Below are positions 22,825-38,996 of a stretch of DNA of 64,000 nucleotides, piece after piece. The stretch's first letter is position 1. The number at the start of each line of letters is the position of its first letter. The DNA comes from an uncultured Oscillibacter sp. GTDB lineage: Bacteria; Bacillota; Clostridia; Oscillospirales; Oscillospiraceae. The stretch spans positions 31,914 through 95,913 of the forward strand of contig CAMXKT010000001.1 in the NCBI GenBank assembly GCA_947244595.1, given 5' to 3'. Made by a program: the position numbers and the translations under genes. The notes below the pieces were generated by a model, which had not been told where the DNA came from, searched no databases, and saw only the letters and a list, made by a program, of their open reading frames with translations.

Positions 22825-22931
22825 TTTGAAGAAAAGTTGAACAAAAGTGCAGGCAAAACCAGCTAAGAATATGATTGCATTAAACAAGGCTCAGGATAAA
22901 AATTTCATGCCATGTGAGGAGAGATTTTTCC

Positions 22932-25900
22932 ATGCCTACGCCACTCGACCCAAGTATAAGTAGGACCCTACCAGCTTCCGCATCATCAGCTATGAAGGTC
23001 GTCCTCATCTCCGAGAGCGGCACCATGGAAAACCTCTGGCTGCCAGGTGCCTCCGGGGGAAGAAGGCGTTTTCCGCGAAGAGACGATCTGCCGCCCCTCT
23101 TCCTGGAGGCGAGGAGAAACGGTTGGTCTGTCCAATTGGAGGAAGGAGCCGTGTTCTCCCCGGCGATCCAGGACGCAGAGGGTGGAGCCGGGCGGCAGAT
23201 GCTACGCCATGAGGGAATTCTGCGGATCCTCTGGAAGCAGGAGCGCTTTGTGCTTTATTCCGAGGCTGGAACGCTGGAAAAGGGGGCCTTTCTGCCCTAT
23301 TTCCTGGAGGAGAACACTGCCTACAGCATCGGGCGCAGTGAAGACAACGACATCTGTTACCTCAACGAGACTGTCTCCCGCTCCCATGCGCAGTTGTACT
23401 GGAGCAGGGGGAGCTGGTGGATCCGGGACTTGGGCAGTACCAACGGCACCTACGTCAATGGGCGGCGGACGTTGGAGCAGCAGTTGAGAAACGGCGACGT
23501 GATCTACATCATGGGGCTGTATATTCTGGTGGGTCCGGGATTCACGGCCATGAACAGCCAGAACAACCGGGTGGTGTTCCACACGCCGAAAATCCGGGCT
23601 ATTACGCCCGGTGAGGGGTGGTCTTATGCGCCGTGCCCAGAAAAGCTTCCGGATCAGGCTCTGTTTGACCGCCAGCCCCGGAAGCAGCGACCGCCGGAGC
23701 CGGAGGCTATTACCTTTGATATGCCCCCCATCCCCATAACCGCCAGCAAGATTCCCCTGCTGTTGCGCATGGGAAGTCCCTTGGTCATGGGCGGCAGAGC
23801 CCTAGTCACCGGCAATCTGGTTATGGCCCTCACATCCCTGGTCTTTCCGGGTCTTACCCAGGGGCTCACGGAGAAGGATCGGAAGGAGTATGAAGAGAAG
23901 CGGCTGACGGTTTACCGGGAATATCTCTCCGGGAAGCGGCAGGAGATTGCCGGAGAAAAGATGGCGGAGGAAGCCCAGCTGAATGAGTGCTACCCGCCTC
24001 TGGACACCGCTTTGCGGTTCGCCGTGGATCGGGACCGGTTGTGGGAGCGACGGAGCGTAGACGAGGATTTTCTAGATCTCAGGATCGGCACCGGAACCCG
24101 CCCGCTGCTAGCGGAGAAAAATTGCCCCAAGGAGACCTTTGAGGTAGAACGGGATGTGCTTAAGGAAGAACTCTTTGCGCTGACTCGAGAACCTGTAATT
24201 TTAAAAGATATTCCCATTTTACTATCCTTGCGCCGGGACTTCATTGTAGGCGTTCAGGGCTTTTCCCGAAAGACCTTCTCGGTATTACGAAATTTACTCC
24301 TCCAGCTGGTGGTAACCCACAGCAGCGACGAGGTGAAGTTGGTCATCCTAGCCGGGGAGACCTATGAGGAGGACTTCCGGTTTGCCCGGAATCTGCCCCA
24401 CACGTGGAGTGACGACCACTCCATCCGGTTTTTTGCCGGAGGGGCTGGGGATATCCCGGCTTTAAGCCGGTACCTCAGTGGGGAGATCGAAGCCGCCCTG
24501 TCTCCGGAACAGCTGCGACCCGGGGCCCAGCGGGGACCAGCCTATGTGATCGTAGCTGCCAGCAAATCCCTTTTTAACGCTTTGGAGTGTCTGAAAGATG
24601 TTCTGGCCCAAAGGGAGTACCGCGGTGTATCTATCATCGCCGCCTTCGATGGGATCCCTAAGGAGTGCACCCAGCTCATCGACCTGAGGGGGGACCCGGC
24701 ACTGTCCGCTCTTAGCGGCTCCGAAGAAACTGGGACTCGCCCCTTTCGGGAGGAGGACTGTGCCCTGGAGCTGTGCCAACGGGCCCTGCTGGAACTGGCC
24801 AGGACCCGCTCTGCGGCCCAGTCTCAAACCTATGCCCTGCCCGATATGATCACCTTTCTGGAGCTTTACGAGGTGGGTCGGGTGGAATATTTGGAGCCCT
24901 TGCGGCGGTGGAAGGAGAACAACCCCGTCAAGTCCCTGGCGGTGCCTATCGGCGTAGGGACCGATGGGCGGCCTTTTGCCCTGGATCTCCACGAGAAGCG
25001 ACAGGGGCCCCACGGCCTGGTGGCCGGCATGACCGGCTCCGGCAAGTCGGAGTTCATCATCACCTATATTCTCTCCATGGCCGTAAACTTCAGCCCCGAC
25101 GAGGTGGCTTTTGTGCTCATCGACTATAAGGGCGGCGGTCTGGCGGATGCTTTTGAGAACGAGGAGCGGGGGATCCACCTGCCCCACCTAGTCGGAACCA
25201 TCACGAACCTGGATGGGACCGCCATTGACCGGTCCCTAGCTTCCATCAAGAGCGAGCTTACCCATCGTCAGACGGTCTTTAAGAATGCCAAGGCTCTGTT
25301 GGGGGAAAGTACCCTGGACATCTACGATTACCAGAAGCTGTATCGCACCGGACAGGTCCAGGAACCGCTGCCCCATCTCTTCATCATCTCTGACGAGTTT
25401 GCGGAGTTGAAGCAGCAGCAGCCCATGTTCATGGACGAGCTCATCAGTGCCGCTCGGATTGGGCGCAGTCTGGGGGTTCACCTGATCCTGGCTACCCAAA
25501 AGCCAGGAGGCGTGGTGAACAACCAGATTTGGAGCAACGCAAAATTCCGGGCCTGTCTCCGGGTCCAGGACCGGAGCGACAGCATGGAGATGCTGAAGCG
25601 CCCGGAGGCGGCGGAGCTGAAGGACACGGGCCGCTTCTACCTTCAGGTGGGGTACGATGAGTACTTTGCCCTGGGGCAGTCCGCCTGGTGCGGCGCCGAC
25701 TACTGCCCCCAGGATCAAGTTCTGGAGGAGCCGGACAATGCCGTCCAGTTCCTGGACAACACCGGTCAGAGTGTTCTCAGTGTCAAGCCGGAGACAGAAA
25801 AAAGGCCATCCCAGGGCCGCCAGATCACCGCTATCGTTCAATACCTGTCAGATCTCGCCAAGGAGCAGAACATTTGCCCCAAAAAGCTCTGGAAGGATGC

Positions 25901-27593
25901 CTTGCCGAAGCAATTGGAGTTGGAGGGCCTGGGCGCATTCATCCGGGGGGATTATTCCGTGCTTCTGGGTACCGTGGACGATCCCGAGCACCAGAGCCAG
26001 TTCCCTCTGTATTTAGATCTCTTAAGCTTCCGAAATCTTCTAGCGGTGGGCAATGCAGGCACCGGGAAGAGCACCCTGATTAGAACGCTGCTCTACGGGT
26101 TGGTGCGCTCCTATGGCCCGGACCATCTGCAATACTATTTGGTGGATCTCTCCGATGGAGCACTGGCAGGGTATCGCCGCTTGCCCCACTGCGGAGCCTA
26201 TCTCACAGAGCGTCAGACCGGGGAGTTGTCCCGGCTCATGGATTTGATCCACGGAATTATCTCCCAGCGGAAAGCCTTGTTTGCCCAGGAGGGTGTGTTC
26301 ACCTTTGAGGCCTACCGGAATATCCGCCCCCTTCCTTTGATTCTCTTCGTTATCGATGGGTACACCAAGATCAAGGGCCTGGAGGGTGGGGACCGGTTTT
26401 TCATGCAACTGCCGGAGTACCTACGGGAGGGGACCACTGTAGGAATCCGGTACATAGTCACCTGCAACCATCTCCCCGAGGTGGGCACCCAGTCCCGACA
26501 GGAATTTGACGGACGGATTGCCCTCCAGGCCAAGGACCACTATGAGTACGCCGACATTCTAAAGGTCACCTGCAAAATTTCCCCCCCAGAGGTCAACGGG
26601 CGGGGCATGTGCGCCCACGAAGGCCGAGGACTTACCTACCAGGCCGCCATGCTGGACTGTCAGCTTCCGGAGAAGGAACAGGCGGAAGCTCTGGAGCGGC
26701 GTTTGCAAGAGATCACAGAGCGGGACCGGGACCTCCCGGCAGCCCAGCGGCTGCCTATGCTGGATCCGAAGCAGACCTATGAGGACTTCTGCAGAGGCTT
26801 TGCCCCAGGCCGGATTCCCCTGGGTTACGCTGCCCGGAATATGCACCCTGTGGCCCTGCCCCTCCAGCAGCTCTACTGTCTTTCATTGTTCCTTGGGAAT
26901 CCCAAGGGAGCGAAGCCGGTGTTTTCCAACCTCCTGCATGCTGCTCAGATCAACGGTATGGAGACCATCGTGCTCCGCCGCAGCGCCGGGAGCGTACTGG
27001 AGGACGTGAGTTCCCGAGAGAATCTGCGATTTTTGGAGTGCTCCCAGGAGGGGCTGACAGAGCTGGCGGCCGTGTTGATGAATGCCTTCCAGGAACGTTG
27101 CGTCCTCCGGGACGAGTACAGCATACAGCAAGGGATTCCTCTGAGCCGTAAGAACCGGGCGGTAAAGGCGTCAAAATACATTCGAGAGCGGAGTAAATCT
27201 ATTCTGGTGCTCATTGAGCGGTTCGCAGACCTCTGCGAGGTAAAGGAAACCCAGAATGAGGGGGAACTCCAAGGACAGCTCATGGCCCTCTTCAGCCTCA
27301 TGCGGGGTTACAACTTTTACTTCGCTGCCGGGTTCTACCACACGGATCCCTCCCTCGCTAAACATCCCCTCATGGCTTACTACAATCAGGAGGGACTGCT
27401 GCTTCTTTCCGGGGGGCGGTACGACAGGACGCCCTTGCCGGAGATTCCCTATGAGCTGAAAAAGCTGGATAAGCAGGACCCCAATTTCAACCACTTTCTT
27501 CTGAAATATCAGGAGAGCTTCCACCCCCTGATCATGCCTTGCGGAAAAATGGAGGAGGAAGCCCTTGACCCGGATGAGGCACCGATTATATAA
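22932..27593 (+). CDS. Type VII secretion-like FHA-FtsK/SpoIIIE ATPase (EssC-like)
   Basis: About 1553 residues from the ATG at 22932, preceded by GAGGAGAG; a GTG at 22914 is possible. In order: an N-terminal region with an FHA domain (about 115-210, core SIGRSEDNDI, SRSHAQLYW, STNGTYVNG), a hydrophobic pair of probable membrane helices (about 275-310), then FtsK/SpoIIIE-type ATPase domains. The first has Walker A GMTGSGKS (about residue 700) and LIDYKGGGLADAF; the second has GNAGTGKST (about 1040). The C-terminal third domain has only a degenerate P-loop (GNPKGAKP). This is the layout of EssC/YukB, the motor that drives WXG100-type proteins across the membrane. It heads an operon with YukD-like and small helical proteins. 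Confidence 0.9.
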   Translation: MPTPLDPSISRTLPASASSAMKVVLISESGTMENLWLPGASGGRRRFPRRDDLPPLFLEARRNGWSVQLEEGAVFSPAIQDAEGGAGRQMLRHEGILRILWKQERFVLYSEAGTLEKGAFLPYFLEENTAYSIGRSEDNDICYLNETVSRSHAQLYWSRGSWWIRDLGSTNGTYVNGRRTLEQQLRNGDVIYIMGLYILVGPGFTAMNSQNNRVVFHTPKIRAITPGEGWSYAPCPEKLPDQALFDRQPRKQRPPEPEAITFDMPPIPITASKIPLLLRMGSPLVMGGRALVTGNLVMALTSLVFPGLTQGLTEKDRKEYEEKRLTVYREYLSGKRQEIAGEKMAEEAQLNECYPPLDTALRFAVDRDRLWERRSVDEDFLDLRIGTGTRPLLAEKNCPKETFEVERDVLKEELFALTREPVILKDIPILLSLRRDFIVGVQGFSRKTFSVLRNLLLQLVVTHSSDEVKLVILAGETYEEDFRFARNLPHTWSDDHSIRFFAGGAGDIPALSRYLSGEIEAALSPEQLRPGAQRGPAYVIVAASKSLFNALECLKDVLAQREYRGVSIIAAFDGIPKECTQLIDLRGDPALSALSGSEETGTRPFREEDCALELCQRALLELARTRSAAQSQTYALPDMITFLELYEVGRVEYLEPLRRWKENNPVKSLAVPIGVGTDGRPFALDLHEKRQGPHGLVAGMTGSGKSEFIITYILSMAVNFSPDEVAFVLIDYKGGGLADAFENEERGIHLPHLVGTITNLDGTAIDRSLASIKSELTHRQTVFKNAKALLGESTLDIYDYQKLYRTGQVQEPLPHLFIISDEFAELKQQQPMFMDELISAARIGRSLGVHLILATQKPGGVVNNQIWSNAKFRACLRVQDRSDSMEMLKRPEAAELKDTGRFYLQVGYDEYFALGQSAWCGADYCPQDQVLEEPDNAVQFLDNTGQSVLSVKPETEKRPSQGRQITAIVQYLSDLAKEQNICPKKLWKDALPKQLELEGLGAFIRGDYSVLLGTVDDPEHQSQFPLYLDLLSFRNLLAVGNAGTGKSTLIRTLLYGLVRSYGPDHLQYYLVDLSDGALAGYRRLPHCGAYLTERQTGELSRLMDLIHGIISQRKALFAQEGVFTFEAYRNIRPLPLILFVIDGYTKIKGLEGGDRFFMQLPEYLREGTTVGIRYIVTCNHLPEVGTQSRQEFDGRIALQAKDHYEYADILKVTCKISPPEVNGRGMCAHEGRGLTYQAAMLDCQLPEKEQAEALERRLQEITERDRDLPAAQRLPMLDPKQTYEDFCRGFAPGRIPLGYAARNMHPVALPLQQLYCLSLFLGNPKGAKPVFSNLLHAAQINGMETIVLRRSAGSVLEDVSSRENLRFLECSQEGLTELAAVLMNAFQERCVLRDEYSIQQGIPLSRKNRAVKASKYIRERSKSILVLIERFADLCEVKETQNEGELQGQLMALFSLMRGYNFYFAAGFYHTDPSLAKHPLMAYYNQEGLLLLSGGRYDRTPLPEIPYELKKLDKQDPNFNHFLLKYQESFHPLIMPCGKMEEEALDPDEAPII

Positions 27594-27608
27594 TAGGGGT
27601 TATAGGAC

Positions 27609-27860
27609 ATGGATAAGAAGCTGATCGCCCTCTTCGTCCCCGCCGTGGGAGAAACCTTCGAGTTGCTGGCGCCTACGCACCTGATACTGTCGGAGCTGAC
27701 AAAGCTGCTGGTGCAAGGCATCCGAGAGCTGTGTCAGGGGCACTACGTGCTTTCCGGGCAGGAAACCCTCTCCCTGCGCCAAGGCGCGGCTCCCTTGGAT
27801 CCTGCCAGGACCCTGGCGGACTACGGCGTGGAGGACGGAGCTGAACTGGTTTTGGTCTAG
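27609..27860 (+). CDS. YukD/EsaB-like ubiquitin-fold protein
   Basis: 83 residues, 15 bases after the EssC-like gene. The sequence (IALFVPAVGETFELLAPTHL, then LSGQETLSLRQGAAPLDPA and TLADYGVEDGAELVLV) matches the YukD/EsaB beta-grasp pattern, a small cytosolic ubiquitin-like protein found with EssC in Firmicute type VII systems, where it affects secretion or substrate levels. It ends with TAG. Confidence 0.8.
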   Translation: MDKKLIALFVPAVGETFELLAPTHLILSELTKLLVQGIRELCQGHYVLSGQETLSLRQGAAPLDPARTLADYGVEDGAELVLV

Positions 27861-27891
27861 GGAAAACTCTCAAGGGAAAGGCGGTGGCCCT

Positions 27892-28095
27892 ATGGCAGCG
27901 GGAATCCCGGAGCTTTTGCGGGATAGCAAGGCGGAGATGCGGCAGTTGTTGCAGCTGCTGGAGGAGGACCGGGAAGTCCTGTCTCAGTGTGTCAGCGGGG
28001 AACTGTTGGAGGCCTGCCTAACGGGCACCCACCGGGCGGCCCAGACGGCCCGAGGGCTACTGGCACAGAGCCGAGAACTGGAGGGAGCCATCTGA
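27892..28095 (+). CDS. 67-residue helical protein of the secretion operon
   Basis: A short, almost wholly helical protein (LLRDSKAEMRQLLQLLEEDR, AAQTARGLLAQSRELEGAI) in the same operon and orientation as the EssC and YukD genes, with a purine-rich ribosome site (GGGAAAGGCGG) upstream. No family recognised. Its size and heptad-like leucines fit a helical-hairpin secretion substrate or a small chaperone for one. Confidence 0.6.
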   Translation: MAAGIPELLRDSKAEMRQLLQLLEEDREVLSQCVSGELLEACLTGTHRAAQTARGLLAQSRELEGAI

Positions 28096-28188
28096 GGACT
28101 CCGGCGCAGAATCGAGAAGTTGATTTGCGGGAGGAACGCAATTTCCCCTCTGCTGATCATAAAAAAATAGAAATGGGAGGTAAATTGC

Positions 28189-28515
28189 ATGGCAACAGGC
28201 AACTATTCGCTTAATGTTCAGGATCAGGCGTCCGTAAACGACTGGAAGGCCCGGGCCCAGAAGCTGAACGAGCAGGCGGAGCGGACGATCCGAGAGGCGG
28301 CCCAGGCGCTGGAGGAGTTCAAGGACACAGCAGAGGGCAACGTCTTCGAACAAGTGTGCACCTACAGCAATCAGGTAATCAACGGCATGACCCAGGTGAT
28401 GCAGGGCATGAACGAAATTCTAACAGCGGTGGACAAGATGATCAACATGGTCCTGGAAAAGGGCAAAGAGCTGGTAGACGGTGTGATTGACGTGGTCGGC
28501 AAGGTCTTCGGATAA
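28189..28515 (+). CDS. WXG100-like helical secretion substrate candidate (108 aa)
   Basis: 108 residues after a strong ribosome site (GGGAGG). Two long amphipathic helices are predicted around a turn (AQKLNEQAERTIREAAQALE ... GNVFEQVCTYSNQV), followed by a third helix. Size, helix pairing and position right after EssC and YukD genes match the WXG100/EsxA class exported by type VII systems, but the W-x-G turn itself is missing (the only Trp is in VNDWKA). The C-terminal stretch LVDGVIDVVGKVFG is hydrophobic. Confidence 0.7.
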   Translation: MATGNYSLNVQDQASVNDWKARAQKLNEQAERTIREAAQALEEFKDTAEGNVFEQVCTYSNQVINGMTQVMQGMNEILTAVDKMINMVLEKGKELVDGVIDVVGKVFG

Positions 28516-28534
28516 GAAAAAGGAGGAATGAAAC

Positions 28535-28897
28535 ATGGCTGACGAACTGAGACTGAAAGTTTCACAGAGCGACTACCAGCAGAAGCTGAGTGTTCTGGAC
28601 ACCAAGATCGGTGAGCTGGAGACCATCTACCGGGAGTATGCCCAGCTGAAGATGGACGCTCACAAGGTCCTGGGTGACGGTGATTCCAATCTCAACACCC
28701 TCATGGAAACGGTTCAGAAAAACATGGACGCCGTGGGTAGCCAGCACGCTATGCTGGTGGAGAGCCGGGCTATGCTTGAGAAGCAGAATGAATCCCTGGG
28801 CATGACCTCCTCCAGCGTGGGGGATCTCCTCAAGGCCACGGGGGAGACCATCTCTAGCGCAGCCAGTGTCTTCAAGACCCTCAGTGATCTCACCTGA
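28535..28897 (+). CDS. WXG100-like helical secretion substrate candidate (120 aa)
   Basis: 120 residues, 19 bases after the 108-residue gene and preceded by AAAGGAGG. It is predicted helix-turn-helix with a glycine turn (LGDGDSN) where WXG would be, and a Ser/Thr-rich C-terminal part (MTSSSVGDLLKATGETISSA). It probably pairs with the 108-residue protein as an Esx-like heterodimer, as type VII substrates commonly do; this is inferred from size, fold and adjacency. Confidence 0.7.
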   Translation: MADELRLKVSQSDYQQKLSVLDTKIGELETIYREYAQLKMDAHKVLGDGDSNLNTLMETVQKNMDAVGSQHAMLVESRAMLEKQNESLGMTSSSVGDLLKATGETISSAASVFKTLSDLT

Positions 28898-28925
28898 GTC
28901 GTATTGAGGGCTTAGACACATCAGC

Positions 28926-29246
28926 GTGTTAGAAAACGGCTTTTCTGCGGATTTTTTATGCCTTCAGGAATACCGGGAGCGCCTGCGCCAAGAGCAGCAG
29001 CTGGCCCAGCGCCTCCAGCAGCACCTGGAGAGCGCCCGGGACCTGGCTCTTCCAGAGGAGACCTGGCGGTACGATGCCCTCCTTCGGGAGGTGAATCGGC
29101 TGGTCCGTTACTTCTCCGCCATGGGAGAGCAGATGGACGCTGTGCTGGAGCAGCTGGCAAGGCTGTCCCTGGACATCCGTCTGCTGCTTCTGGACACCTC
29201 GTCGGACATCCGGCGGAAAACCGGGATTTTCTTTCCCGATGGATGA
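28926..29246 (+). CDS. 106-residue coiled-coil protein ending the secretion operon
   Basis: The frame opens with a GTG at 28926 and has no clear ribosome site, so the start is uncertain. The product is strongly helical (EYRERLRQEQQLAQRLQQHL, EVNRLVRYFSAMGEQMDAVL, LARLSLDIRLLLLDTSSDI) and of the right size for another type VII partner or chaperone. It is the last gene before the terminator at 29273-29314. No family recognised. Confidence 0.6.
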   Translation: MLENGFSADFLCLQEYRERLRQEQQLAQRLQQHLESARDLALPEETWRYDALLREVNRLVRYFSAMGEQMDAVLEQLARLSLDIRLLLLDTSSDIRRKTGIFFPDG

Positions 29247-29272
29247 GGTTGAGCGCCCCGTCAAGGCAAGAA

Positions 29273-29314
29273 AAGAGTGGTCCGGCTGCCCATAGGGGTA
29301 GTCGGATCACTCTT
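29273..29314. terminator. Terminator of the secretion operon
   Basis: A long imperfect hairpin (AAGAGTG ... CACTCTT, with an inner GC-rich stem around CTGCCCATAGGGGTAG) followed by CGTTTT. It separates the plus-strand secretion genes from the convergent PP2C gene. The stretch 29315-29638 beyond it holds only short, poorly supported frames. Confidence 0.75.
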
Positions 29315-29638
29315 CGTTTTGCTGTAATCGTTCAACGTAGCTTCTGAAGTCCCCCCATGGCTCTATATATAAACCGTCACCTGGCGCAGCCTTCTCATCA
29401 CCCGGGCCTCCCGCGTTACATCCACCGGGGTTGTAGATTCATCTTTACCTGCCGATCATCACATCCATTCCCAGCCTCAGATGGCGGGCTTGGAGGAGTC
29501 GTCTGTTCCCATTCTCCTGCAACGGCACCCGTTTTTGTAATCCGCCTCCAGTAGTACCCCCCAGAACTTCCGGTGCCTCTTGTACCGTGAACGCCACATT
29601 TTTCTCCCCTCTCACATGGCACTGAATCCGGAGCTGTC

Positions 29639-30418
29639 TCAGAACCAGCTCCGCCTGATCTCCACCGCCAGAACCGTTACGTTGTCCAACCCCCCGTTCC
29701 GGAGGGCCGCCTGGACCAGTCGGTCCGCCGCAGTAGAGGGGGAATCAGCCTCCCGCAAAATCACTGAGATGTCCTGCGCCGCCACCATGTCCGTCAGCCC
29801 ATCGGAGCACAGCAGCAGCCGACAGCTGCCGGGGATCACCGGGTAACTCTCCGCCGGCTGAGGACGTCCAATCCCCACACATCGGGTCAGGCGATAGTCC
29901 GGCCGCGTGTCCGCAGAGGGTGGGATCCCCGCGAGCAAATGATCCGCCCACACATTGTGGTCATGGGTTACCTGCCAGAACCTCCCCCGGCGGCTGCAAA
30001 AGATCCGAGAGTCCCCCAGATTGAAGCAACGGACTCCTCGGCAGGTCAGTACCGCCAGGGCCAGCGTAGACCCGGACCGCCGCCCTGACGGGGCCGATGA
30101 TCCCACCGCCCGATGAGCCTGCCGGACACAGGACTGTACCGCAGCTTCCAGACTCGACGGTGCCGCCGCCAGCAGGGCATCACGGTTCGCCGCAAAGGTC
30201 TCTGCCGTCAGCCGGGAGGCAGTCTCCCCCGCCGCCTCGCCCCCCATACCATCACACACAGCGAAAACCGCTGGGACGCTGGTCGTGCCGTCCAGGGAGA
30301 AAGCCCGGCTGCCCAGTGACGGCGGCAGGAGCACCCCGTCGGCCAGGAGATTGTCTTCATTGTTCTCCCGCAGCAGCCCCAGATGGGACCGCGCGGCATA
30401 GTTCACTGTCCACTTCAT
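29639..30418 (-). CDS. PP2C-family Ser/Thr protein phosphatase
   Basis: 259 residues from the ATG at 30418 (GGGGCGGAGGG upstream). The PP2C metal motifs are present: RENNEDNLL near the N-terminus, VCDGMGGEAAGE, LCSDGLTDMV and GGLDNVTVL near the C-terminus. It is a cytosolic metal-dependent phosphatase that should reverse phosphorylation by the kinase encoded at 35485-37464. Transcribed with the VWA-FHA gene just upstream and pointing toward the secretion operon. Confidence 0.9.
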   Translation of the reverse strand: MKWTVNYAARSHLGLLRENNEDNLLADGVLLPPSLGSRAFSLDGTTSVPAVFAVCDGMGGEAAGETASRLTAETFAANRDALLAAAPSSLEAAVQSCVRQAHRAVGSSAPSGRRSGSTLALAVLTCRGVRCFNLGDSRIFCSRRGRFWQVTHDHNVWADHLLAGIPPSADTRPDYRLTRCVGIGRPQPAESYPVIPGSCRLLLCSDGLTDMVAAQDISVILREADSPSTAADRLVQAALRNGGLDNVTVLAVEIRRSWF

Positions 30419-30458
30419 CCCTCCGCCCCTTTCCGACGCAGGGGCCCGGCACGCAGCC

Positions 30459-32078
30459 TCACTGGGTTCCACCCTCAAAGAGGGCGGATGTGGGGCGGCC
30501 GGCCTTGGGGGACTTCGCCGCCATTTCGGGATCCTCCGGGCCGTCCAGTTTCTGGATATAGTCGACCTTCAGTTTCTCCCGGCCCAGGCTCAGGAGATCG
30601 CCGGAGGCCACGGGTTTGCTATCCGTAACCCTTTCACCGTTGACCCGGGTGGTGTTGGACCCCAGGTGAACCAGCACTAAAGCGCTGCCATGCACCTCTA
30701 GACGGCAGTGCTCCCGGGAAACAGTCCCCTCCTCCAAACGAAGATCGCAGTAATCCGCCCGACCGATGAGGAGGGAATCCGCCAGTTCCAAGGTCCAAGA
30801 CAGCCCCGGGTGTCTAGGCGCGCTGAACTTCACCGTGTACAAAGCGCCGTCTATGAAGGGTGTTGTTTTCGATTGTTTCTCCGTGGGACGGGCTGAAGCG
30901 GCGGAGCTCTTGTCCTTGTCCGCAACCGGTACGGTTTCCTTCTTCTTCCCCCGGAGTGCAACGACCAGCACCGCCGTCAATATCACAACAACGGCCACAG
31001 CACCAATGGCGCAGACCGCACCGTACCGCTCCAGGAAGGCAGGCTCCGGAATTGCCTCCGGCTCCGGTTCAGACTCCGATTCAGGCTTCGGTTCAGGCTC
31101 CGGTTTAGGCTTCGGTGCTTCCGGTATCTCCGCAGGAGCGGCGGTCTCGGGCGCTGCCTGGACGAAGCTCGCGGGAAACTTCACATCCAGGGTAACCGTG
31201 GTCTTGCCCAAGGTGAGATCCACCTGACGCACGGACCCATCCAGCAGATGTTCCGGCGCCTGAACCTGTAGATAGGAAAAGTCATCCGCACTTAGTCTTG
31301 CTGGCAAGTCCTCCAGAGAGGTATCCGGATCCAGAGAGAAATAGCTTCCCCCGCTGATCCGGGTTATTCCGGAGAGCTCCTTGTTCGGCGTACTTTGGAC
31401 CTGCTCACTGACCGCCAGCACGTCCACGGGGCAGTACTCATTCTGGAGCTTCAGGAAGAGCTCTTCCATGGTCACACCCACCTTGGTCGCATCCGCCCCA
31501 TCGGTAATCACCAGAATGCGGGAGTAGGGGGGCAGGTCCTCCCCAGTCTCTTCCGCTTGGGAGATGGCATTGTAGATGGCGTCGTAGATCATACTCCATT
31601 GGCCGTCGAAGGCGATGGACTCCACGGCTTTCCCTAAGTCGTAGCGGTCCGTCGTGAAGTCGCACAGGACTCGCGTCTCCTGGGCAAACGCAATGAGCCG
31701 GTACTCCTCATTAGCGCTCTTGCGCTCAATGAGCTTGTCCACAGCGGCCACCACTTTCTCCCGCATGGCCTTAGGCATGGAGCCGGAGACGTCGATGAGC
31801 ACTGTGGTCCGAATCCGGGCATCCTCGTCGGAGAGCGTACCGGCCTTTTGTACAGGGGCCTCCTGATTGGAGACCCGGCAGATCACGGCGGCGGGATCCA
31901 CATCGCCGTTCAGGAAAAAAGTAGTCAGCATCTCGCTGGGAACCACCTGGACTACCTGAAACTCCTCCTCCGCCAGAGCCGGGGGAATAAGCGTCCCTGC
32001 GGGCAGCAGGATTAGGAGAACCGCAAGAACTGCGGTGCACAGAGCACACTTCCTCATATCATCCACCATCCCAAACAT
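30459..32078 (-). CDS. VWA-TM-FHA membrane protein of the secretion locus
   Basis: About 539 residues from the ATG at 32078; an ATG at 32057 gives a cleaner signal peptide and is an alternative. Order of parts: signal peptide ending near ALA-EEE, an extracellular von Willebrand A domain with a MIDAS site DVSGSM (about residue 96) and ITDGAD, a Pro/Glu/Lys-rich linker, one membrane helix (about 345-370), then a cytosolic FHA domain (LLIGRADYCDL, SREHCRLE, NTTRVNGERV). This places a ligand-binding domain outside and a phospho-threonine reader inside. It sits with a PP2C phosphatase and faces the EssC operon, so it is a candidate scaffold or sensor for the system. Confidence 0.88.
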   Translation of the reverse strand: MFGMVDDMRKCALCTAVLAVLLILLPAGTLIPPALAEEEFQVVQVVPSEMLTTFFLNGDVDPAAVICRVSNQEAPVQKAGTLSDEDARIRTTVLIDVSGSMPKAMREKVVAAVDKLIERKSANEEYRLIAFAQETRVLCDFTTDRYDLGKAVESIAFDGQWSMIYDAIYNAISQAEETGEDLPPYSRILVITDGADATKVGVTMEELFLKLQNEYCPVDVLAVSEQVQSTPNKELSGITRISGGSYFSLDPDTSLEDLPARLSADDFSYLQVQAPEHLLDGSVRQVDLTLGKTTVTLDVKFPASFVQAAPETAAPAEIPEAPKPKPEPEPKPESESEPEPEAIPEPAFLERYGAVCAIGAVAVVVILTAVLVVALRGKKKETVPVADKDKSSAASARPTEKQSKTTPFIDGALYTVKFSAPRHPGLSWTLELADSLLIGRADYCDLRLEEGTVSREHCRLEVHGSALVLVHLGSNTTRVNGERVTDSKPVASGDLLSLGREKLKVDYIQKLDGPEDPEMAAKSPKAGRPTSALFEGGTQ

Positions 32079-32132
32079 AGGGTCTCCCATCGGCAACGAA
32101 GAATTTGCCGACACAGGGCCCGATTTGTGGAA

Positions 32133-32161
32133 AGCATACCACGTTTTTTGCCTCTTTTCAA
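32133..32161 (-). promoter_or_regulatory. Promoter of the VWA-FHA / PP2C operon
   Basis: On the minus strand TTGAAA (32156-32161) and TATGCT (32133-32138) are 17 bases apart. Confidence 0.6.
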
Positions 32162-32221
32162 CCATCCTCATAGCGTTTCTTCAGCTTACGGCAGAAATTG
32201 CCGGGGACTTCCGCCATCGCC

Positions 32222-32250
32222 TTGTCAAACGGTAAATTTGCCGATATAAT
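32222..32250 (+). promoter_or_regulatory. Promoter of the TPR lipoprotein / kinase operon
   Basis: TTGTCA (32222-32227) and a consensus TATAAT (32245-32250) with a 17-base spacer, 55 bases before the first lipoprotein start. Confidence 0.75.
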
Positions 32251-32304
32251 TGGAACAACGGCGGGCGGATCGTCTGTGCCGCACTTAAAAGGGAGGGGAC
32301 ATTG

Positions 32305-33480
32305 ATGCGAAGGAGCAGAGCACGTGGTTTCTATGCATTTTTGTGCGTGATTTTGCTGCTAACCGCCTGTGGGGTGAAAGAGCCCACTTGGCAGGAGCAG
32401 TACGCCCTGGGCGTCCGGTACTTATCCGAGGGCAACTACGAGGAGGCGATCATCGTCTTTACTGCCGCCATTGAGATTGATCCCAAGTTGGCCCCTGCTT
32501 ACGTGGGTCGCGGCGACGCCTACATACTTTCTGGCGAGACGGCAGAAATCCTAGCGGCAGCCCAGTCGGACTATGAGAAGGCCCTGATCCTTGACAACAC
32601 CTTCGTTGAGGTCTATCAAAAACTGGCCCAGGTCTATCTTACGTTGGAGGAACCTAATAAAGCGGCAGAGATTCTGGAACAGGGCTTTGCGGTGACTGGC
32701 GATGAGACTCTGGGGGAGTCTCCGGAGGATATCCAGGTGAGTCTTCCGGATCCGGAACCCACCTCTGATAGAATCTCTGACTTGCTCGGGAAGACAATGG
32801 GCGACGTGGTGGAACGCTACGGAGAAGGCTATAGCGCTGATAACTATGAAGGATCGACCTTCATCATGTATCAGGACATCGGAGCATTTTATTTTGGCAC
32901 AATTGTCGAGTACCCTGATTATGATGCAATCATTACCATGATCTCATGGTATAGTGATGAGCCCCTAGTGGGGGTGCTGACAGGAATGATGACGTATCCT
33001 GAGCTTGTCGCTGCGGTAGGAGAGGTAGCAAAAGAGCCGGAGTATTCTTTTAATGAATTTGACAATAAAGTCATCTATTCCAGCGATTTTGTATACCAAG
33101 GATACCGTGTCAGCTACATTTGGCTGGAGGATCCAACTACCACGGCCTCCGTCAGTGTGACTATAGGGAAAGATGAGGACATCTTTGAGACACATTGGTA
33201 TGAGCCTGACATGGGCCTTATAACAGAGCGTTTCAATCACATAGGGCGCAACTACCTTACGGAGGTTTTGGATATCCCAGCTGACGCCGGGGTCCAGTTC
33301 GCGAACATCCAGCATGCCGGTGGTATGTTATGGAGTATGGATTGTTACACACCGACAGACAACGGGCTGCGCATTTTCGCCTCCTTCGAATTTGATCCGT
33401 GGAGCAGCAGAGCAGCTATCACTCCCCAATGGGGCGGTGAATTTGATGCCGAATTTGATATGGATCAATACGATTATTGA
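32305..33480 (+). CDS. TPR lipoprotein 1 of the tandem family
   Basis: 391 residues from the ATG at 32305 (GGGAGGGG upstream). Signal peptide with lipobox LLTAC, then the family's constant block of about 60 residues (WQEQYALGVRYLSEGNYEEA ... AAIEIDPK ... AYVGRGDAY), which is a TPR pair, then a second TPR region and a unique C-terminal domain (from about residue 150, with ISDLLGKTMGDVVERYG) of unknown type. The lipid anchor puts it on the outer face of the membrane. First of five tandem paralogues in the secretion locus. The C-terminal half has visibly lower GC than the neighbours. Confidence 0.85.
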   Translation: MRRSRARGFYAFLCVILLLTACGVKEPTWQEQYALGVRYLSEGNYEEAIIVFTAAIEIDPKLAPAYVGRGDAYILSGETAEILAAAQSDYEKALILDNTFVEVYQKLAQVYLTLEEPNKAAEILEQGFAVTGDETLGESPEDIQVSLPDPEPTSDRISDLLGKTMGDVVERYGEGYSADNYEGSTFIMYQDIGAFYFGTIVEYPDYDAIITMISWYSDEPLVGVLTGMMTYPELVAAVGEVAKEPEYSFNEFDNKVIYSSDFVYQGYRVSYIWLEDPTTTASVSVTIGKDEDIFETHWYEPDMGLITERFNHIGRNYLTEVLDIPADAGVQFANIQHAGGMLWSMDCYTPTDNGLRIFASFEFDPWSSRAAITPQWGGEFDAEFDMDQYDY

Positions 33481-33514
33481 TGTGATAGTCATGGATGAAA
33501 AGAGGACGCAAGAG

Positions 33515-34378
33515 ATGAAACGGTATCTAGCCCTTATTCTATCCTGTGTGCTACTTCTGTGTGGCTGCAGTCAGCAGCTTCCCATCTGGGAGGAACAGTA
33601 CGACCTGGGTGTCCGGTACCTGTCCGAGGGCAACTATGAGGAGGCGATCATCGCCTTTACGGCGGCCATTGAGATTGATCCCAAACAGGCCCTTGCCTAC
33701 GTGGGACGGGGCGATTCCTATATTACGGCTGTGCGGTCAAGTGCTGTCTCCAATGCTTATCAAAATGCCCTAGCGGATTACTTGTATGCAATCAGCCTTG
33801 ACAGTCAAATCGTGGAGGGATACCAACGGGCAGCGGAAATATATATTCTTTTAAATGATACCGATTCCGCTGCAGAACTTCTGCGGCAAGGGATAGACAC
33901 CACCGGAAGCGTAAAGCTGCAAGATGATTTAGACAAACTGCAAGTTGGGGAAATCTTGACCGTATTGACCCACGTAACGTATTGCATTGACGATGGATCT
34001 AAGGTAGAACAGCATTTCATCTACAATGAGCAGGGCTATAACATCCGCGGAGAAGCCGCTTTTCTTTCTGCAGATGGAACAGAAACCGCACATGATGTAA
34101 CAATATGCACATATGATTCGGAACCAGGCTACTGTCACTATGAGACCTGCCACTGGTCGCTTTACAGAAACACCCGCGGAGAAAGGCAAGTGAGTCCTGG
34201 GGTACCCGTGTACTATATTGCTGGTTACGGAACCGGCGAAAGTGCGGGTGTAGACGGAAGTCAGATTCTGTCGAAGAAGAAATTGGCTGAGATTAAAGCA
34301 AATAACGGAATTTATGAGCCACATAGATATGGACCCCAACGACGCACGGGCGTGGCATCATGCAGTCCATACCTTTGA
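33515..34378 (+). pseudogene. TPR lipoprotein 2, frameshifted near its C-terminus
   Basis: 287 residues from the ATG at 33515. Lipobox LLLCGC, then the constant block (EEQYDLGVRYLSEGNYEEAI ... AAIEIDPKQALAYVGRGDSY). The C-terminal domain is unlike that of lipoprotein 1 and contains YNEQGYNIRGEAAFLSADGT, an RHS-like phrase. The last residues (YEPHRYGPQRRTG) look out of frame, while a different frame from about 34314 to 34478 continues with WHHAVHTFDDAGNPTTITSY and RADGSITGTAEYEW, matching the style of the family. A 1-base gain or 2-base loss just before about 34310 would explain this. Confidence 0.6.
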
Positions 34379-34502
34379 TGATGCGGGAAATCCAACGACT
34401 ATTACCTCTTATCGTGCTGACGGATCCATTACAGGCACAGCAGAATACGAATGGACAACTATGAAGATAGTTCCCTGAATTCAGAAAAAGAAGGTAATTC
34501 GA

Positions 34503-35453
34503 GTGATAGAAAAGGCTCCGATTTTGTATTTGGTGTTTGTACTTTTGGTTTGCCTTTGCGCTTGTGCCCCAAGCGAATCAACTTGGCACAAGCAGTATGA
34601 CCTAGGTGTCCGTTACTTATCCGAAGGAAACTATGAGGAAGCCATCATCGCTTTCACCGCCGCTATTGAGATCGGCCCCAAACAGGCCCTCGCCTATGTA
34701 GGTCGGGGCGATGCCTATGTCGCTTCCGGCGAGACGGAGGAACACCAGGCTGCGGCCCAGGCGGATTATGAGAAGGCTATTGAACTGGATGAATTTTTGA
34801 CAGAAGCGTACTTAGGGTTTGCGGGCATTTATATTCAGCAAGGAGATTATGAAGACGCATTGAAGCTGTTACAGAATGCTCTGGAAAAAATAGACAACCG
34901 TTCTTCTGTTGAAGCAAAGATCTCGGAGTTAGAAAAATTGATAGAATCTTCATTAGAGCAGGAAACACAAGAGGAATATACTTTCCGAGTTCAGGCAGTT
35001 GAAAACGACATGATTGTGGAAGCTGAGAATCTGGCGGTTCATGTGCGGGATGACCGTACTGCGGCCATAACTGTCAGCGGACTTTCCCTGGAAGACAGTT
35101 ATTTGACAAACTTACATTCTAGTGGCAAGAACAGCTCGGAATACTTGTGGGAAGTTAAACTGTATGGTAATCAAAAAGCTTATAGTGTATCAACTTCATG
35201 TTGGGCTTTTGACCCAGGAGCAGAAAAAGTGAAGGCTATTGCCGATATGCAGCATTCGCTTTGGGTGAATGATGGAGATAGCTGGCCACGGATTGCCGAC
35301 GTTGAAATGTCTTACACGAAAAGCAGTATAACGTGGACCTTCACTGTTCCAGATGAGTATCCATTTGATTTCAGTAGTGTGAATCGCTATGAAGTGGGTA
35401 TAAAAGATATTTCCCTGGGGCTCACTTCCCACAAGGTTTACACCCCCGGATGA
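34503..35453 (+). CDS. TPR lipoprotein 3 of the tandem family
   Basis: 316 residues from a GTG at 34503 preceded by AAGAAGG. Lipobox CLCAC, the constant TPR block (KQYDLGVRYLSEGNYEEAII ... KQALAYVGRGDAY), a further TPR (GFAGIYIQQGDYEDALKLL) and a beta-rich C-terminal domain (from about residue 165, ITVSGLSLEDSYLTNL) with no recognised family. It directly precedes the kinase gene. Confidence 0.82.
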   Translation: MIEKAPILYLVFVLLVCLCACAPSESTWHKQYDLGVRYLSEGNYEEAIIAFTAAIEIGPKQALAYVGRGDAYVASGETEEHQAAAQADYEKAIELDEFLTEAYLGFAGIYIQQGDYEDALKLLQNALEKIDNRSSVEAKISELEKLIESSLEQETQEEYTFRVQAVENDMIVEAENLAVHVRDDRTAAITVSGLSLEDSYLTNLHSSGKNSSEYLWEVKLYGNQKAYSVSTSCWAFDPGAEKVKAIADMQHSLWVNDGDSWPRIADVEMSYTKSSITWTFTVPDEYPFDFSSVNRYEVGIKDISLGLTSHKVYTPG

Positions 35454-35484
35454 GAACAATATTGTGATATGTAGAGGTATCATT

Positions 35485-37464
35485 ATGACCATGGCTACTA
35501 TCAACGATACATATGAATTGAAATCAATGATCGGCCAAGGCGGTATGTCCACCGTCTACCTCGCCGAGCACATCCGCCTCCACACCCGTTGGGCGGTGAA
35601 GGAGGTCCGCAAAAACCAGGCAATCCGTTTTGACTTTCTAGCAGAGTCCAACATTCTGAAACGTCTACAGCACCCGATGCTCCCTCGTATCGTGGACATT
35701 TTCGATACAGCGGAGACGGTCTATATAGTGGAGGATTTCGTAGAGGGTATTACCCTAGGCGATCTGCTCCGACAGCAGAAAAAGGTGGACGAGGCCCAGG
35801 GCCTCCAGTGGTTTCAGGACCTGTGCGGCGTCCTGAGCTACCTCCACAATCAGCAGCCGAACCCTATCATATACCGGGACCTGAAGCCATCCAACATCAT
35901 GCTTCAGCCCGATGGCACGCTGAAACTCATCGACTTCGGCATTGCGCGGGAATACAAGGAGGACTCCAACGCCGATACCACCTACGTCGGCACCAGGGGT
36001 TATGCCGCCCCGGAGCAGTTCGGTAAGGCCCAGACCGACGCCCGAACGGACATCTATGCCCTGGGCGTCACCATATACCACCTGCTGACCGGAAAAAGTC
36101 CCTACGAGCCGCCTTATCAGTTCGTCCCCGCTCGGCAGCTGGCCCCGAAGCTTTCCCGCGGGACTGAGTACATACTGAGTAAGTGCATTCAGTCGGAACC
36201 GGCTAACCGCTATCAGTCTGTCGACTCCCTTCTGGACAACCTGGAACACATCTATCGTTTTGACCTCGCCTGGAAGCGATATCAGAACGCCAAACGGCTC
36301 CGGGTCGTTATCATTGCGGCGATGCTGGCGGTGTCCATCGGCCTGATCATGGGCGGACAAGCCTTGATAGGACAGGAGAAAGAGGCTTCCTATGCCGCTT
36401 TGCTGGAACAGGCCGGCGGGCTTTATACTTCCAACTTTGAAAGCGCCTTGGTCTGTCTTGAGGAGGCACGAAGCTTGTTCCCGAAGCGGATTGAAACAGA
36501 CCGGCAGCAGACCTACGCGCTCTATCTCAACGGTCAGTGGCAGTCGTGCGTTGACTATGGCGCCGATGTGCTGAAGCGCCATGGTCCTGATACCCAAACC
36601 CGGCTCTTTATGGCCTCGGCTCAGTTTGAGCTGGGCGACTATACTCAGGCGGCGGAGGGCTTTGCCCAAGGAGGGGAGCTTTCTGCCGACAACCTACGGG
36701 ACTATGCCGTCTGTCTGGGCCGCTTGGGTCAGGTGGAACAAGCGGAGGCTATCCTGGAGCAGCTGATCGGTCAGGGCGCTAACCCGGATGTAACTCAGTA
36801 TGTCCAAGGCGAAGTCTACTACGCCCAGAAGAAATACCTGGAGGCGGAGGATGCCTTTTTAAAGGCGTTGGAGCAAGCGGAGACCTTGGCCCTCTCTCGG
36901 AGGTGCTACGTCTCTCTGGAGGATCTGTACCGGGACTGCGCCGCTCTGGTACGAACCGATGCGTCCCCCATTGCCTACCCCGCCACCAAGTCCGCAGAGC
37001 TGCTGTCCTCTGCTGTGGTCCAGGAGGGTTTACGCTATGACAGTGTGCTGTGGGAGGCCCTGGCGCTGGCCTATTTCGAGGCCTATCATACAGATCCCAG
37101 CGTCCCGGCGGACTATCTCAGCAAGGCGGCCAACTGCTTTAACCGGGTCATAGAACTGGGCGTAGTAAAGGAATATTACGCCAATCTCTACACCATTTAC
37201 TATGAGATGAAGGACTACGGACGGGCGGAGCAAACCCTTATGGACTACGAGGCCGCCTTTCCTGAGGATTACATGCCCCATGCACTGCGAGGCATGATGC
37301 TGATCACCGTAGAAAATGAGAAACCCCAGAGTGCACGGAACTACGAACTGGCTCAGGCGGAGTATGAGACAGCGGAAGAGATGCTCCGGAGCTCTGATGA
37401 CACCACCTATTATCAGCAGCTTGAAAGTCTGATCGAAAATTTGCGGAAAAATGGCTGGCTGTAA
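35485..37464 (+). CDS. Transmembrane Ser/Thr protein kinase with C-terminal TPRs
   Basis: 659 residues from the ATG at 35485 (AGAGGT upstream). Residues 1 to about 265 are a PknB/Hanks-type kinase: glycine loop IGQGGMSTVY, lysine in WAVKEV, catalytic loop IYRDLKPSN (about 128-136; Tyr replaces the usual His of HRD), DFG in LIDFGIAREY (about 150) and APE in GYAAPEQFG. One membrane helix follows (about 272-295), then a long TPR-like helical region to the C-terminus, presumably outside. The active-site residues are intact apart from the H-to-Y change, which is common in bacterial kinases. It likely phosphorylates Thr residues read by the FHA domains of the EssC-like and VWA-FHA proteins. Confidence 0.9.
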   Translation: MTMATINDTYELKSMIGQGGMSTVYLAEHIRLHTRWAVKEVRKNQAIRFDFLAESNILKRLQHPMLPRIVDIFDTAETVYIVEDFVEGITLGDLLRQQKKVDEAQGLQWFQDLCGVLSYLHNQQPNPIIYRDLKPSNIMLQPDGTLKLIDFGIAREYKEDSNADTTYVGTRGYAAPEQFGKAQTDARTDIYALGVTIYHLLTGKSPYEPPYQFVPARQLAPKLSRGTEYILSKCIQSEPANRYQSVDSLLDNLEHIYRFDLAWKRYQNAKRLRVVIIAAMLAVSIGLIMGGQALIGQEKEASYAALLEQAGGLYTSNFESALVCLEEARSLFPKRIETDRQQTYALYLNGQWQSCVDYGADVLKRHGPDTQTRLFMASAQFELGDYTQAAEGFAQGGELSADNLRDYAVCLGRLGQVEQAEAILEQLIGQGANPDVTQYVQGEVYYAQKKYLEAEDAFLKALEQAETLALSRRCYVSLEDLYRDCAALVRTDASPIAYPATKSAELLSSAVVQEGLRYDSVLWEALALAYFEAYHTDPSVPADYLSKAANCFNRVIELGVVKEYYANLYTIYYEMKDYGRAEQTLMDYEAAFPEDYMPHALRGMMLITVENEKPQSARNYELAQAEYETAEEMLRSSDDTTYYQQLESLIENLRKNGWL

Positions 37465-37585
37465 TGGCATTTTGATGCGCATGGATCTGTGAGGCAGGTA
37501 GCGCCGATGTTCACTTTCTCCTGTCAGCGGATGAGGTACGGCACAAAGCGATCGTAAAAATCATTTCATTAAAAGGAGTTCTTCT

Positions 37586-38017
37586 ATGACAATCGGACAA
37601 CTTGTTTTCTACGGCGGATTGGCCCTACTGGGACTGACGATCATTGTCGCTATCGTTTTTCTGGTAAAAAAGCTTGCATACCAGCCCGAAAACCCCATTT
37701 ATGAGAGAACCGCGGCAGGCCGCACCCAGCCTCTCCGCAACGGTTATCCTGCGGAGAAGGAGTCCATTCGCCACGGCGGCTCCAAACGAACGGAGCCTAT
37801 GCAGACCGCGGCATTCGATAACGAAACAGGCACAGCGGCCCGAGAGACGGAGGCATTTGTCGATGAGACCGACGTGCTCTCTCAGGAACTCGATACCCAC
37901 GATGGCAAAACTGCCGCGCTCTTCCGGAAAGCAGACACTCGGCCGGGCGGTTCGAATCTATTAGGACGGCGGCGGAGACGTGTGAGCCTACTGAAATTTT
38001 GGAAACAACATATTTAA
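37586..38017 (+). CDS. 143-residue membrane protein with a Thr/Glu-rich cytosolic tail
   Basis: Preceded by AAAAGGAG. One N-terminal membrane helix (about residues 5-28) is followed by a polar tail rich in Thr, Glu and Asp (KRTEPMQTAAFDNETGTAAR, RETEAFVDETDVLSQELDTH) and a basic C-terminus (LGRRRRRVSLLKFWKQ). No family recognised. Thr flanked by acidic residues is the usual target of PknB-type kinases and of FHA binding, so the tail may be a phospho-switch for this locus. That role is inferred from motif style and position only. Confidence 0.65.
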   Translation: MTIGQLVFYGGLALLGLTIIVAIVFLVKKLAYQPENPIYERTAAGRTQPLRNGYPAEKESIRHGGSKRTEPMQTAAFDNETGTAARETEAFVDETDVLSQELDTHDGKTAALFRKADTRPGGSNLLGRRRRRVSLLKFWKQHI

Positions 38018-38032
38018 AATAAGAGGCAACGG

Positions 38033-38650
38033 ATGAAACGGGCGTTTTTATTGATTTTATGGGCAATCCTTCTGGTGGGGATGTGTGCCTGCGGAGCGTA
38101 CGAAAGTACCCCCAGCTGGCAGGAGCAGTATGATTTGGGTATCCGATATTTATCTGAGGGAAATTATGAGGAGGCTATTATTGCCTTCACGGCCGCTATT
38201 GAGATTGATCCAAAACAATCCTCTACCTATGTGGGACGGGGCGACGCTTGCATTGGTTCCGGCGAGACGGAGAAACATCTGACGACGGCCCAAGCGGACT
38301 ATGAGAGGGCAATTGAACTGGATGCAACCGATGTATCCGCATGGCTTGGCCTTGCGGATGTATATATCCGACTGAGAGACTATGTAGGAGCGGAAGACGT
38401 GCTGAGACAAGCACCTGAAAAAACTGAAAGTAATCAACGCATTGCAGATAAGTTAGCGGAATTCTCTTCTGAAAGGATAACCGATGCTCAAGGAAAAGAT
38501 AGGATAACAATTTGGCGGTTGCCGGATGGCTCGATAGACTCATATTGTATTACAAATTACGACACCGGGAATCGCAGAACCGGTGAGGTATATTGTCAAG
38601 CTGACGGAACTATAGAGAACTATAATGTTATTACCTATATGTGCATGTAA
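38033..38650 (+). CDS. TPR lipoprotein 4 of the tandem family (short form)
   Basis: 205 residues. Lipobox VGMCAC, the constant TPR block (WQEQYDLGIRYLSEGNYEEA ... KQSSTYVGRGDA), a second TPR and a short C-terminal region ending in WRLPDGSIDSYCITNYDTGN, which resembles the RHS-like ends of lipoprotein 2. It is shorter than its paralogues, so its C-terminus may have been lost. The end overlaps the next paralogous fragment. Confidence 0.78.
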   Translation: MKRAFLLILWAILLVGMCACGAYESTPSWQEQYDLGIRYLSEGNYEEAIIAFTAAIEIDPKQSSTYVGRGDACIGSGETEKHLTTAQADYERAIELDATDVSAWLGLADVYIRLRDYVGAEDVLRQAPEKTESNQRIADKLAEFSSERITDAQGKDRITIWRLPDGSIDSYCITNYDTGNRRTGEVYCQADGTIENYNVITYMCM

Positions 38651-38852
38651 CTGCAACTCTGAGGTAATCTCTTGGCAGAAGCAGTATAATCTGGGTATCC
38701 GATGCTTACCTGAGGGAAATTACGCAGAGGCTATCATTGCTTTCACAGCCGCTATTGAGATTGATCCAAAGCAAGCCCCCGCCTACGCGGGGCAGGGCGA
38801 TGCCTTTCCTCTTCCACGAGGATACTCTCATTTTCCGCTTCCACGAACTTAG
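38625..38852 (+). pseudogene. TPR lipoprotein 5, truncated stub
   Basis: 75 codons carrying a degraded lipoprotein start and the constant TPR block (WQKQYNLGIRCLPEGNYAEA ... KQAPAYAGQGDAF) that then runs into unrelated sequence. It overlaps the end of lipoprotein 4 by 26 bases in another frame. The break point near 38810 adjoins the integrase scrap, so it was probably cut by the same rearrangement. Confidence 0.65.
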
Positions 38853-38903: not shown

Positions 38904-38955
38904 CAAAGCGCTGACCCAATTTTTTGACCGGATTATTTCAACGCAAAGACAAGGA

Positions 38956-38989: not shown

Positions 38990-38996
38990 GTGCTTG

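Follow-up and report, generated by a model that had tools for sequence, protein, structure and literature searches.

Gene content of the locus

The window examined here is a stretch of 64,000 nucleotides from an uncultured Oscillibacter sp. (assembly GCA_947244595.1, contig CAMXKT010000001.1, positions 31,914 to 95,913). Its positions 22932-38852 hold a type VII secretion system (T7SS) locus that also encodes a Ser/Thr kinase, a PP2C phosphatase and two FHA domains. From a listing of open reading frames (ORFs) and Pfam/TIGR profile scans of the window proteins we assign EssC, YukD, four small helical proteins, PP2C, a VWA-TM-FHA protein (TM, transmembrane segment), a kinase-TM-TPR protein, a single-TM protein and five TPR lipoproteins, one of them truncated. 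TM and signal stretches were placed by a hydropathy scan and inspection by eye, with no trained predictor. The parts named in a preliminary description of this DNA all lie where it had put them; it had not listed the single-TM protein, and the last of its lipoproteins is a truncated copy.

The motor ATPase EssC (TsxC; 22932..27593, plus strand) clears the curated model TIGR03928 with 830 bits against a cut-off of 778 and carries one N-terminal FHA domain (residues 137-199 of the ORF counted from 22914; 74.7 bits). A Shine-Dalgarno-like GAGGAG precedes the ATG at 22932 but not the GTG at 22914. EssC is followed by the ubiquitin-like YukD/EsaB (TsxB; 27609..27860, plus; PF08817, 37.7 bits, cut-off 27) and by four small ORFs (27892-29246, plus), none of which reaches the cut-off of any Pfam family. 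The same order of EssC, YukD and four small ORFs is seen in L019, a locus from an Oscillospiraceae metagenome-assembled genome that holds the nearest EssC relative with readable flanks. In gene order the pairwise identities are 32, 13, 27 and 23%, and two of the L019 ORFs are recognisable by profile, namely the counterparts of s120 and s106. The small helical protein s67 (27892..28095) is the positional counterpart of a 58-aa ORF of L019; s108 (28189..28515) is a predicted helical hairpin without a WXG motif; s120 (28535..28897) is helical (model pLDDT 71); and s106 (28926..29246) is a small protein whose L019 homologue sits at the same place.

The PP2C/PPM phosphatase gene (TsxF; 29639..30418, minus; PF00481, 49.4 bits) starts 40 bases after the VWA-TM-FHA gene (30459..32078, minus). 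The product of the latter reads as a signal peptide, a VWA domain (DxSxS..TDG; Pfam, 38.2 bits), a TM segment predicted by hydropathy at residues 355-373, a probably cytosolic linker and an FHA domain (46.9 bits). TPR lipoproteins 1 (32302..33480), 2 (33515..34378) and 3 (34503..35453), all on the plus strand, were assigned by TPR profile, the first two also by a lipobox seen by eye; the ORF of lipoprotein 2 is listed from 33314, and its start was set at the lipoprotein signal. The kinase (TsxD, TsjD-like; 35485..37464, plus) joins a Pkinase domain (172 bits) through a TM segment at 272-290, again by hydropathy, to a TPR half that is predicted to be extracytoplasmic. Directly after it comes the single-TM protein (37586..38017, plus), of 143 residues and with a disordered-looking tail, and then lipoprotein 4 (38033..38650, plus; TPR profile scan, lipobox by eye) and the truncated fifth copy (38625..38852, plus; profile scan and inspection).

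EssC relatives and the linkage of the phosphorylation genes

Searches for EssC, in which the window genome (G000) is counted, found it in 10 of the 150 family genomes at E up to 1e-30, in 32 of the 396 order genomes at 1e-60 and in 33 of the 373 class genomes at 1e-40, plus five named loci. As only two or three candidates were scored in each genome, weak matches or additional copies may have escaped these searches. In a tree of 46 EssC proteins the window EssC forms a clade of its own with those of L015 and L019, on a long branch (SH-aLRT 100), and this clade is retained in a second tree of 48 proteins.

Pfam WXG100 has no match in the window genome, the sole exception among 33 EssC-positive genomes, 32 of which do match. 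A home-made WXG100 profile took in the L019 counterpart of s108 (13% identity) during iteration, at 1.5e-10, and gave s108 itself 0.056. The s108 model, a helical hairpin (pLDDT 75), has Esx structures among its structure-search hits (for example 4lws_A, TM-score 0.74), none of them significant; Foldseek with s120 returned varied helical bundles and no significant hit. By its position and model s108 is a candidate, not a proven, divergent WXG100 protein (TsxA). The outright reading that WXG100 is missing from the locus was toned down, since the home-made profile accepts the L019 counterpart, though not s108.

Since the window genome is 73% complete, each absence from it is provisional. EssB was not found there and occurs in only one of the 33 EssC-positive genomes (G008), adjoining a second EssC in which our home-made profile detected no FHA domain. 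EsaA gave no match in the window genome, none above the cut-off in the 33 and matches below it in three. We rejected a standard T7SSb on the grounds that EssB and EsaA were not found in these whole-genome profile searches; the preliminary description had set this type aside too, having recognised neither EssA nor EsaA in the locus. LXG was likewise not found in the genome, and DUF6382, the partner domain in published TsxJ, has no match there (24 of 38 EssC-positive genomes match, 18 above the cut-off). An Ig-like TsjI was not seen among the 15 ORFs of the locus scanned with Pfam; according to PMC11217815 InterPro misses such Ig domains, which makes Pfam alone a weak guide. Every locus ORF longer than 150 aa has a non-Ig assignment, leaving no large spare ORF for TsjI.

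Garrett, Higginson and Palmer 2024 (PMC11217815) describe types T7SSc-j, several with a kinase, a PPM phosphatase and FHA proteins; they report conserved phospho-threonine (pThr) signatures in the TsxC of some types and already draw the comparison with the type VI secretion system (T6SS). Phospho-regulated type VII secretion and its T6SS parallel, both put forward in the preliminary description, had thus been proposed in print and are not new. By description, the nearest published type is T7SSj. It shares with the locus an EssC with canonical FHA, YukD, a kinase with a C-terminal TPR, a PPM phosphatase and a small single-TM protein that is unstructured over part of its cytosolic side; the 37586-38017 protein fits the account of TsjK and is likened to it by description only. 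Unlike T7SSj, the locus has a VWA-TM-FHA protein and TPR lipoproteins, while the DUF6382-FHA protein (TsjJ) was not found in the genome, no TsjI candidate lies in the locus and the WXG100 is unrecognised by Pfam. T7SSe shares the kinase, the PPM phosphatase, a separate FHA protein, single-TM proteins and two WXG100-type positions, but its FHA protein is the soluble DUF6382-FHA TseJ; the locus further differs in the TPR ectodomain of its kinase and holds no TseI candidate. T7SSc also places a vWA-domain protein (TscE) beside the kinase and PPM phosphatase. TscE, the only vWA protein in the main text of PMC11217815, is predicted to be cytosolic and has no TM segment, whereas the VWA domain of the locus looks exported and is TM-joined to FHA; the EssC of T7SSc lacks the FHA domain that the locus EssC has. 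By this comparison of descriptions the locus appears to be a type VII system of non-T7SSb kind, closest to T7SSj/T7SSe, in which the VWA-TM-FHA protein may stand in place of the DUF6382-FHA protein of the published types. As such it would be a T7SS component beyond the parts list in the main text of PMC11217815. No paper on a VWA-TM-FHA protein of a T7SS came up in a literature search that left most subscription journals outside its coverage, and neither that search nor the PMC11217815 main text showed a phosphosite for variants of this kind.

We scanned 48 EssC loci, several on short contigs (down to 7 kb), with home-made profiles; G551 and G861 were included because of their VWA-FHA genes, and other EssC matches of the class search were left out. 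A kinase was present in 27 of the 48, PP2C in 24, and at least one of the two in 30. The fullest counterpart of the phosphorylation genes is a single-strand gene string in G551:C47: YukD, EssC, WXG100, two unassigned ORFs, TPR, two WXG100s, VWA-TM-FHA, kinase-TM-TPR, PP2C, TPR, VWA and an Ig-like protein. Identity to the window proteins is 35% over 525 columns for VWA-TM-FHA, 39% for PP2C and 26% end to end for kinase-TM-TPR. One contig of G488 carries EssC, YukD, kinase-TPR and VWA-TM-FHA. The EssC proteins of G551 and G488 pair with each other at 65% identity, and their clade is distant from the window EssC; one and the same phospho-module is thus found with two EssC lineages. Matches to the TPR half of the window kinase occur in 5 of 167 genomes of the order (the window genome included, three genera), all EssC-positive, and all five matches to the N-terminal region of lipoprotein 3 in the window genome fall inside the locus. 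We take the co-location to be beyond chance, because G551:C47 has homologues of EssC, YukD, VWA-TM-FHA, kinase-TM-TPR and PP2C side by side, all on the same strand, and because the lipoprotein matches are confined to the locus.

Full-length VWA-TM-FHA proteins were found in 3 of the 396 order genomes (G000, G488 and G437), all EssC-positive (Fisher 0.0005, or 0.006 without the window genome). Two further genomes gave partial matches: G338 has the VWA half only, with EssC not detected, and G091 has the FHA half only. The G091 protein (G091:C3; L026 14370-15290) is a TM-FHA protein encoded directly upstream of EssC that resembles VWA-TM-FHA in its C-terminal half and has no VWA domain. In a tree of 18 VWA-FHA rows, a split with support 100/99 separates 11 (EssC-undetected modules, G740, G861, G603 and G808) from seven, and among the seven the window protein groups with those of G488, G551 and G533 (100/99). 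Two of these three, G488 and G551, lie in EssC loci; G533 is a 4.5-kb contig from a genome in which EssC was not detected.

A candidate threonine switch

The signature GR..SxxH..N[GA]T is found in the N-terminal part of 27 of the 48 EssC proteins (a tighter pattern finds it in 25 of 42 FHA segments). The window EssC is one of them, retaining GR..SxxH..NGT, and the FHA domain of the window VWA protein retains GR, SREH and N. The full signature is missing from the EssC of G488, G551, G316, G442, G391, G425 and others. The two window domains had been described from the start as pThr readers; their signatures are indeed intact, and from these we infer the reading.

Candidate sites for such readers were sought in an exploratory way, by counting the motif Thr-x-hydrophobic-hydrophobic (T-x-phi-phi) against expectations from shuffles (5000 for the four-tail test). 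The next two genes after each of 42 kinase genes were filtered for single-TM proteins. Seven passed, and four were kept that lie directly after the kinases of G000, G469, G316 and G442 and have a charged, disordered-looking tail; the other three were dropped. The four tails hold 12 motifs against 2.8 expected (0 of 5000 shuffles as high), with serine at 2 vs 3.4 and asparagine mildly raised at 6 vs 2.7. All seven proteins give 15 vs 6.5 (p 0.0035; serine 6 vs 7.9). VWA-FHA linkers and tails together give 12 vs 4.4 (p 0.0015; serine 3 vs 6.1), in rows that are related and in a test prompted by examples. A first single-TM filter (four proteins, two of the right type) gave T 5 vs 1.5 (p 0.016), but also Q 4 vs 0.8 (p 0.007). 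Among 1212 proteins near EssC or VWA-FHA genes, seven carry at least four acidic-flanked T motifs inside a stretch of 120 residues; no protein reaches four S motifs. These seven are the window protein, G316_003, G391_001 (a single-TM tail), one FHA protein and three related TPR proteins (repeats such as DEGTVLLN). At exactly three motifs there are 12 T and 17 S proteins, so the T-over-S contrast holds only at four or more, and it emerges only with hydrophobic stretches removed and an acidic neighbour required; an early wide count of the same 1212 proteins at three or more motifs showed no T-over-S excess (20 T, 30 S proteins). Tandem motifs were also seen in L085 1144-3336 (G220), and likewise in G240, where a zinc-ribbon TPR protein with seven tandem TVLL-type repeats adjoins kinase and VWA genes in an EssC locus. 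In the window protein at 37586-38017 there are four Thr-x-A/V-hydrophobic motifs (TAAF, TEAF, TDVL and TAAL), which suggests that its tail is a pThr docking tail for FHA domains, of a TsxK/H-like kind.

With moderate confidence we read the locus as a non-T7SSb type VII system, closest to T7SSj/T7SSe, with a built-in threonine phospho-switch. In this model EssC would be the motor and YukD its ubiquitin-like partner, with the small helical proteins in the WXG100/Lap positions. The outward TPR domain of the membrane kinase, probably assisted by the TPR lipoproteins, would sense a cue in the envelope. The kinase would then phosphorylate T-x-phi-phi sites on the cytosolic tail of its gene neighbour, the single-TM protein, and perhaps on the linker of the VWA-TM-FHA protein too. 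By binding these phospho-threonines, the FHA domains of EssC and VWA-TM-FHA would bring the motor together at the membrane; the exterior VWA domain would tie the complex to an envelope partner, and PP2C would reset the switch. A more specific form of the proposal, which we hold only tentatively, is that post-kinase single-TM proteins in general are multi-site docking tails, written by the kinase and read by the FHA domains of EssC and of the exported VWA-TM-FHA protein, so that phosphorylation would switch the assembly of the motor and couple it to a sensor on the outside.

Like the T6SS threonine phosphorylation pathway, the locus brings together a kinase, a PP2C phosphatase and a predicted FHA reader, a comparison of how the parts may work and not of membership. 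According to PMC3953482, Thr14 of Agrobacterium tumefaciens TssL is phosphorylated in a PpkA-dependent manner and Fha binds the peptide DLPpTVVEI. The PpkA/PppA/Fha/TssL pathway thus pairs kinase-dependent pThr on a membrane component with an FHA reader and a PP2C-type phosphatase, and the TssL peptide resembles the motif of the locus. The T6SS is a different secretion machine, and in our locus one FHA domain belongs to the motor EssC and the other to the VWA protein. In the GarA ETTS switch (PMC5448819), a pThr motif in an unstructured extension is likewise bound by an FHA domain; GarA, in contrast, is a soluble metabolic regulator bound in cis and not a secretion part.

Several observations weigh against such a switch. 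The PP2C and VWA-FHA pair (29639-32078, minus) sits between the EssC group and the lipoprotein/kinase group, both on the plus strand, so the locus is not one operon; the single continuous stretch of the preliminary description holds for co-location only. In 18 of the 48 EssC loci neither kinase nor PP2C was found in the stretch examined, and the 16.5-kb contig of L019 shows no kinase, PP2C or separate FHA; the short L015 contig has neither kinase nor PP2C. The EssC FHA domains of G488 and G551, whose VWA-FHA proteins are closest to that of the window, lack the pThr signature, and the reader there would therefore have to be the VWA protein. In the class sample, where both VWA and FHA domains occur in 15 of 373 genomes, only 4 of the 15 are EssC-positive, compared with 33 among all 373 (Fisher p 0.035, or 0.11 once the window genome is removed), and EssC was not detected in the other 11. 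The four are the window genome, G551, where VWA-FHA and EssC share a contig, G861, where about 14.5 kb separate them, and G740, where they lie on different contigs. The four-tail motif test was post hoc, made after examples had been seen and on four of seven filtered proteins, and T motifs are not in excess in the kinases between their catalytic domain and the TM (3 seen vs 4.0 expected). The check that the preliminary description had proposed for its own refutation comes out mixed: most EssC loci do have a kinase or PP2C, but most VWA-TM-FHA genomes of the class gave no EssC, and L019 has neither gene on its contig. The core idea of the preliminary description is plausible and in line with the recurrent linkage.

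Alternatives, surroundings and meaning

The strongest alternative, which we consider unlikely though well worth weighing, is ordinary divergence within the published T7SSj (or T7SSe), with VWA-FHA merely occupying the place of DUF6382-FHA. The locus has parts B, C, D and F, a K-like part and possibly A; a TPR C-terminus of TsjD, a conserved FHA signature in TsjC, and TsjF and TsjK are all given in PMC11217815. The window kinase domain moreover clusters (96/98) with the kinases of G316 and G442, both from loci carrying DUF6382-FHA genes. Against it stand the lack of a DUF6382 match in the window genome, the absence of a large unassigned ORF for an Ig-like TsjI in the locus and the separate long branch of the window, L015 and L019 EssC proteins, in a tree without TsjC.

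A stand-alone envelope-signalling module of kinase, PP2C, FHA and VWA-FHA that lies beside the type VII locus by chance and does not control it seems to us improbable. It would fit the opposite strand of PP2C and VWA-FHA here, and such modules do occur: 7 of the 11 EssC-undetected class cases show the row PP2C, FHA, PP2C, FHA, VWA-FHA, with a kinase in front in five. The rows are those of G824 (L170 9326-15988), G710, G678, G676, G810, G580 and G726, with no kinase found in the last two; in G824, the only row scanned, the first of the FHA proteins has a trypsin-like peptidase fused to its FHA domain. Because EssC went undetected in 11 of the 15 class cases, we rejected the view that VWA-FHA is an obligate component of T7SS. 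The VWA-FHA tree, however, sets the window protein with those of G488, G551 and G533, across the supported split from these modules, and G551 has its module and EssC together in a single same-strand string. Decay of the system, with EssC kept and the WXG100 partner and substrates lost, is very improbable: the missing Pfam WXG100 match, the missing LXG and the truncated lipoprotein copy would agree with it, but the main ORFs are open across their full profile matches, L019 keeps the four-small-gene order with two genes recognisable by profile, and the genome is incomplete.

Base composition varies along the locus, with a lower GC content in the lipoprotein parts (0.47-0.52 at 32000-36000 and 38000-39000) than in the EssC part (0.55-0.60), a contrast that suggests a mosaic locus. 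An Rfam scan of 22400-39600 gave no RNA element match at E up to 0.1. Beyond the truncated lipoprotein, 39001-39035 bears a partial resemblance by eye to a tRNA (reverse complement) and is single-copy in the window; ARAGORN gives no tRNA in the window, and the first 28 bases have no exact match in the other loci. It is possibly an old integration scar. At 39310-41144 (minus) a gene that looks by eye like a glycoside hydrolase is split into three ORFs by one in-frame stop and one frame change, and is either a broken gene or an assembly error.

Beyond what has been published, the locus adds a VWA-TM-FHA component, a WXG100 position that is not recognisable as such and concrete candidate phospho-threonines. 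The motif-bearing tail offers a precise target, four threonines in a protein of 143 residues, and the VWA-TM-FHA protein is a candidate link between the cell exterior and the secretion motor.

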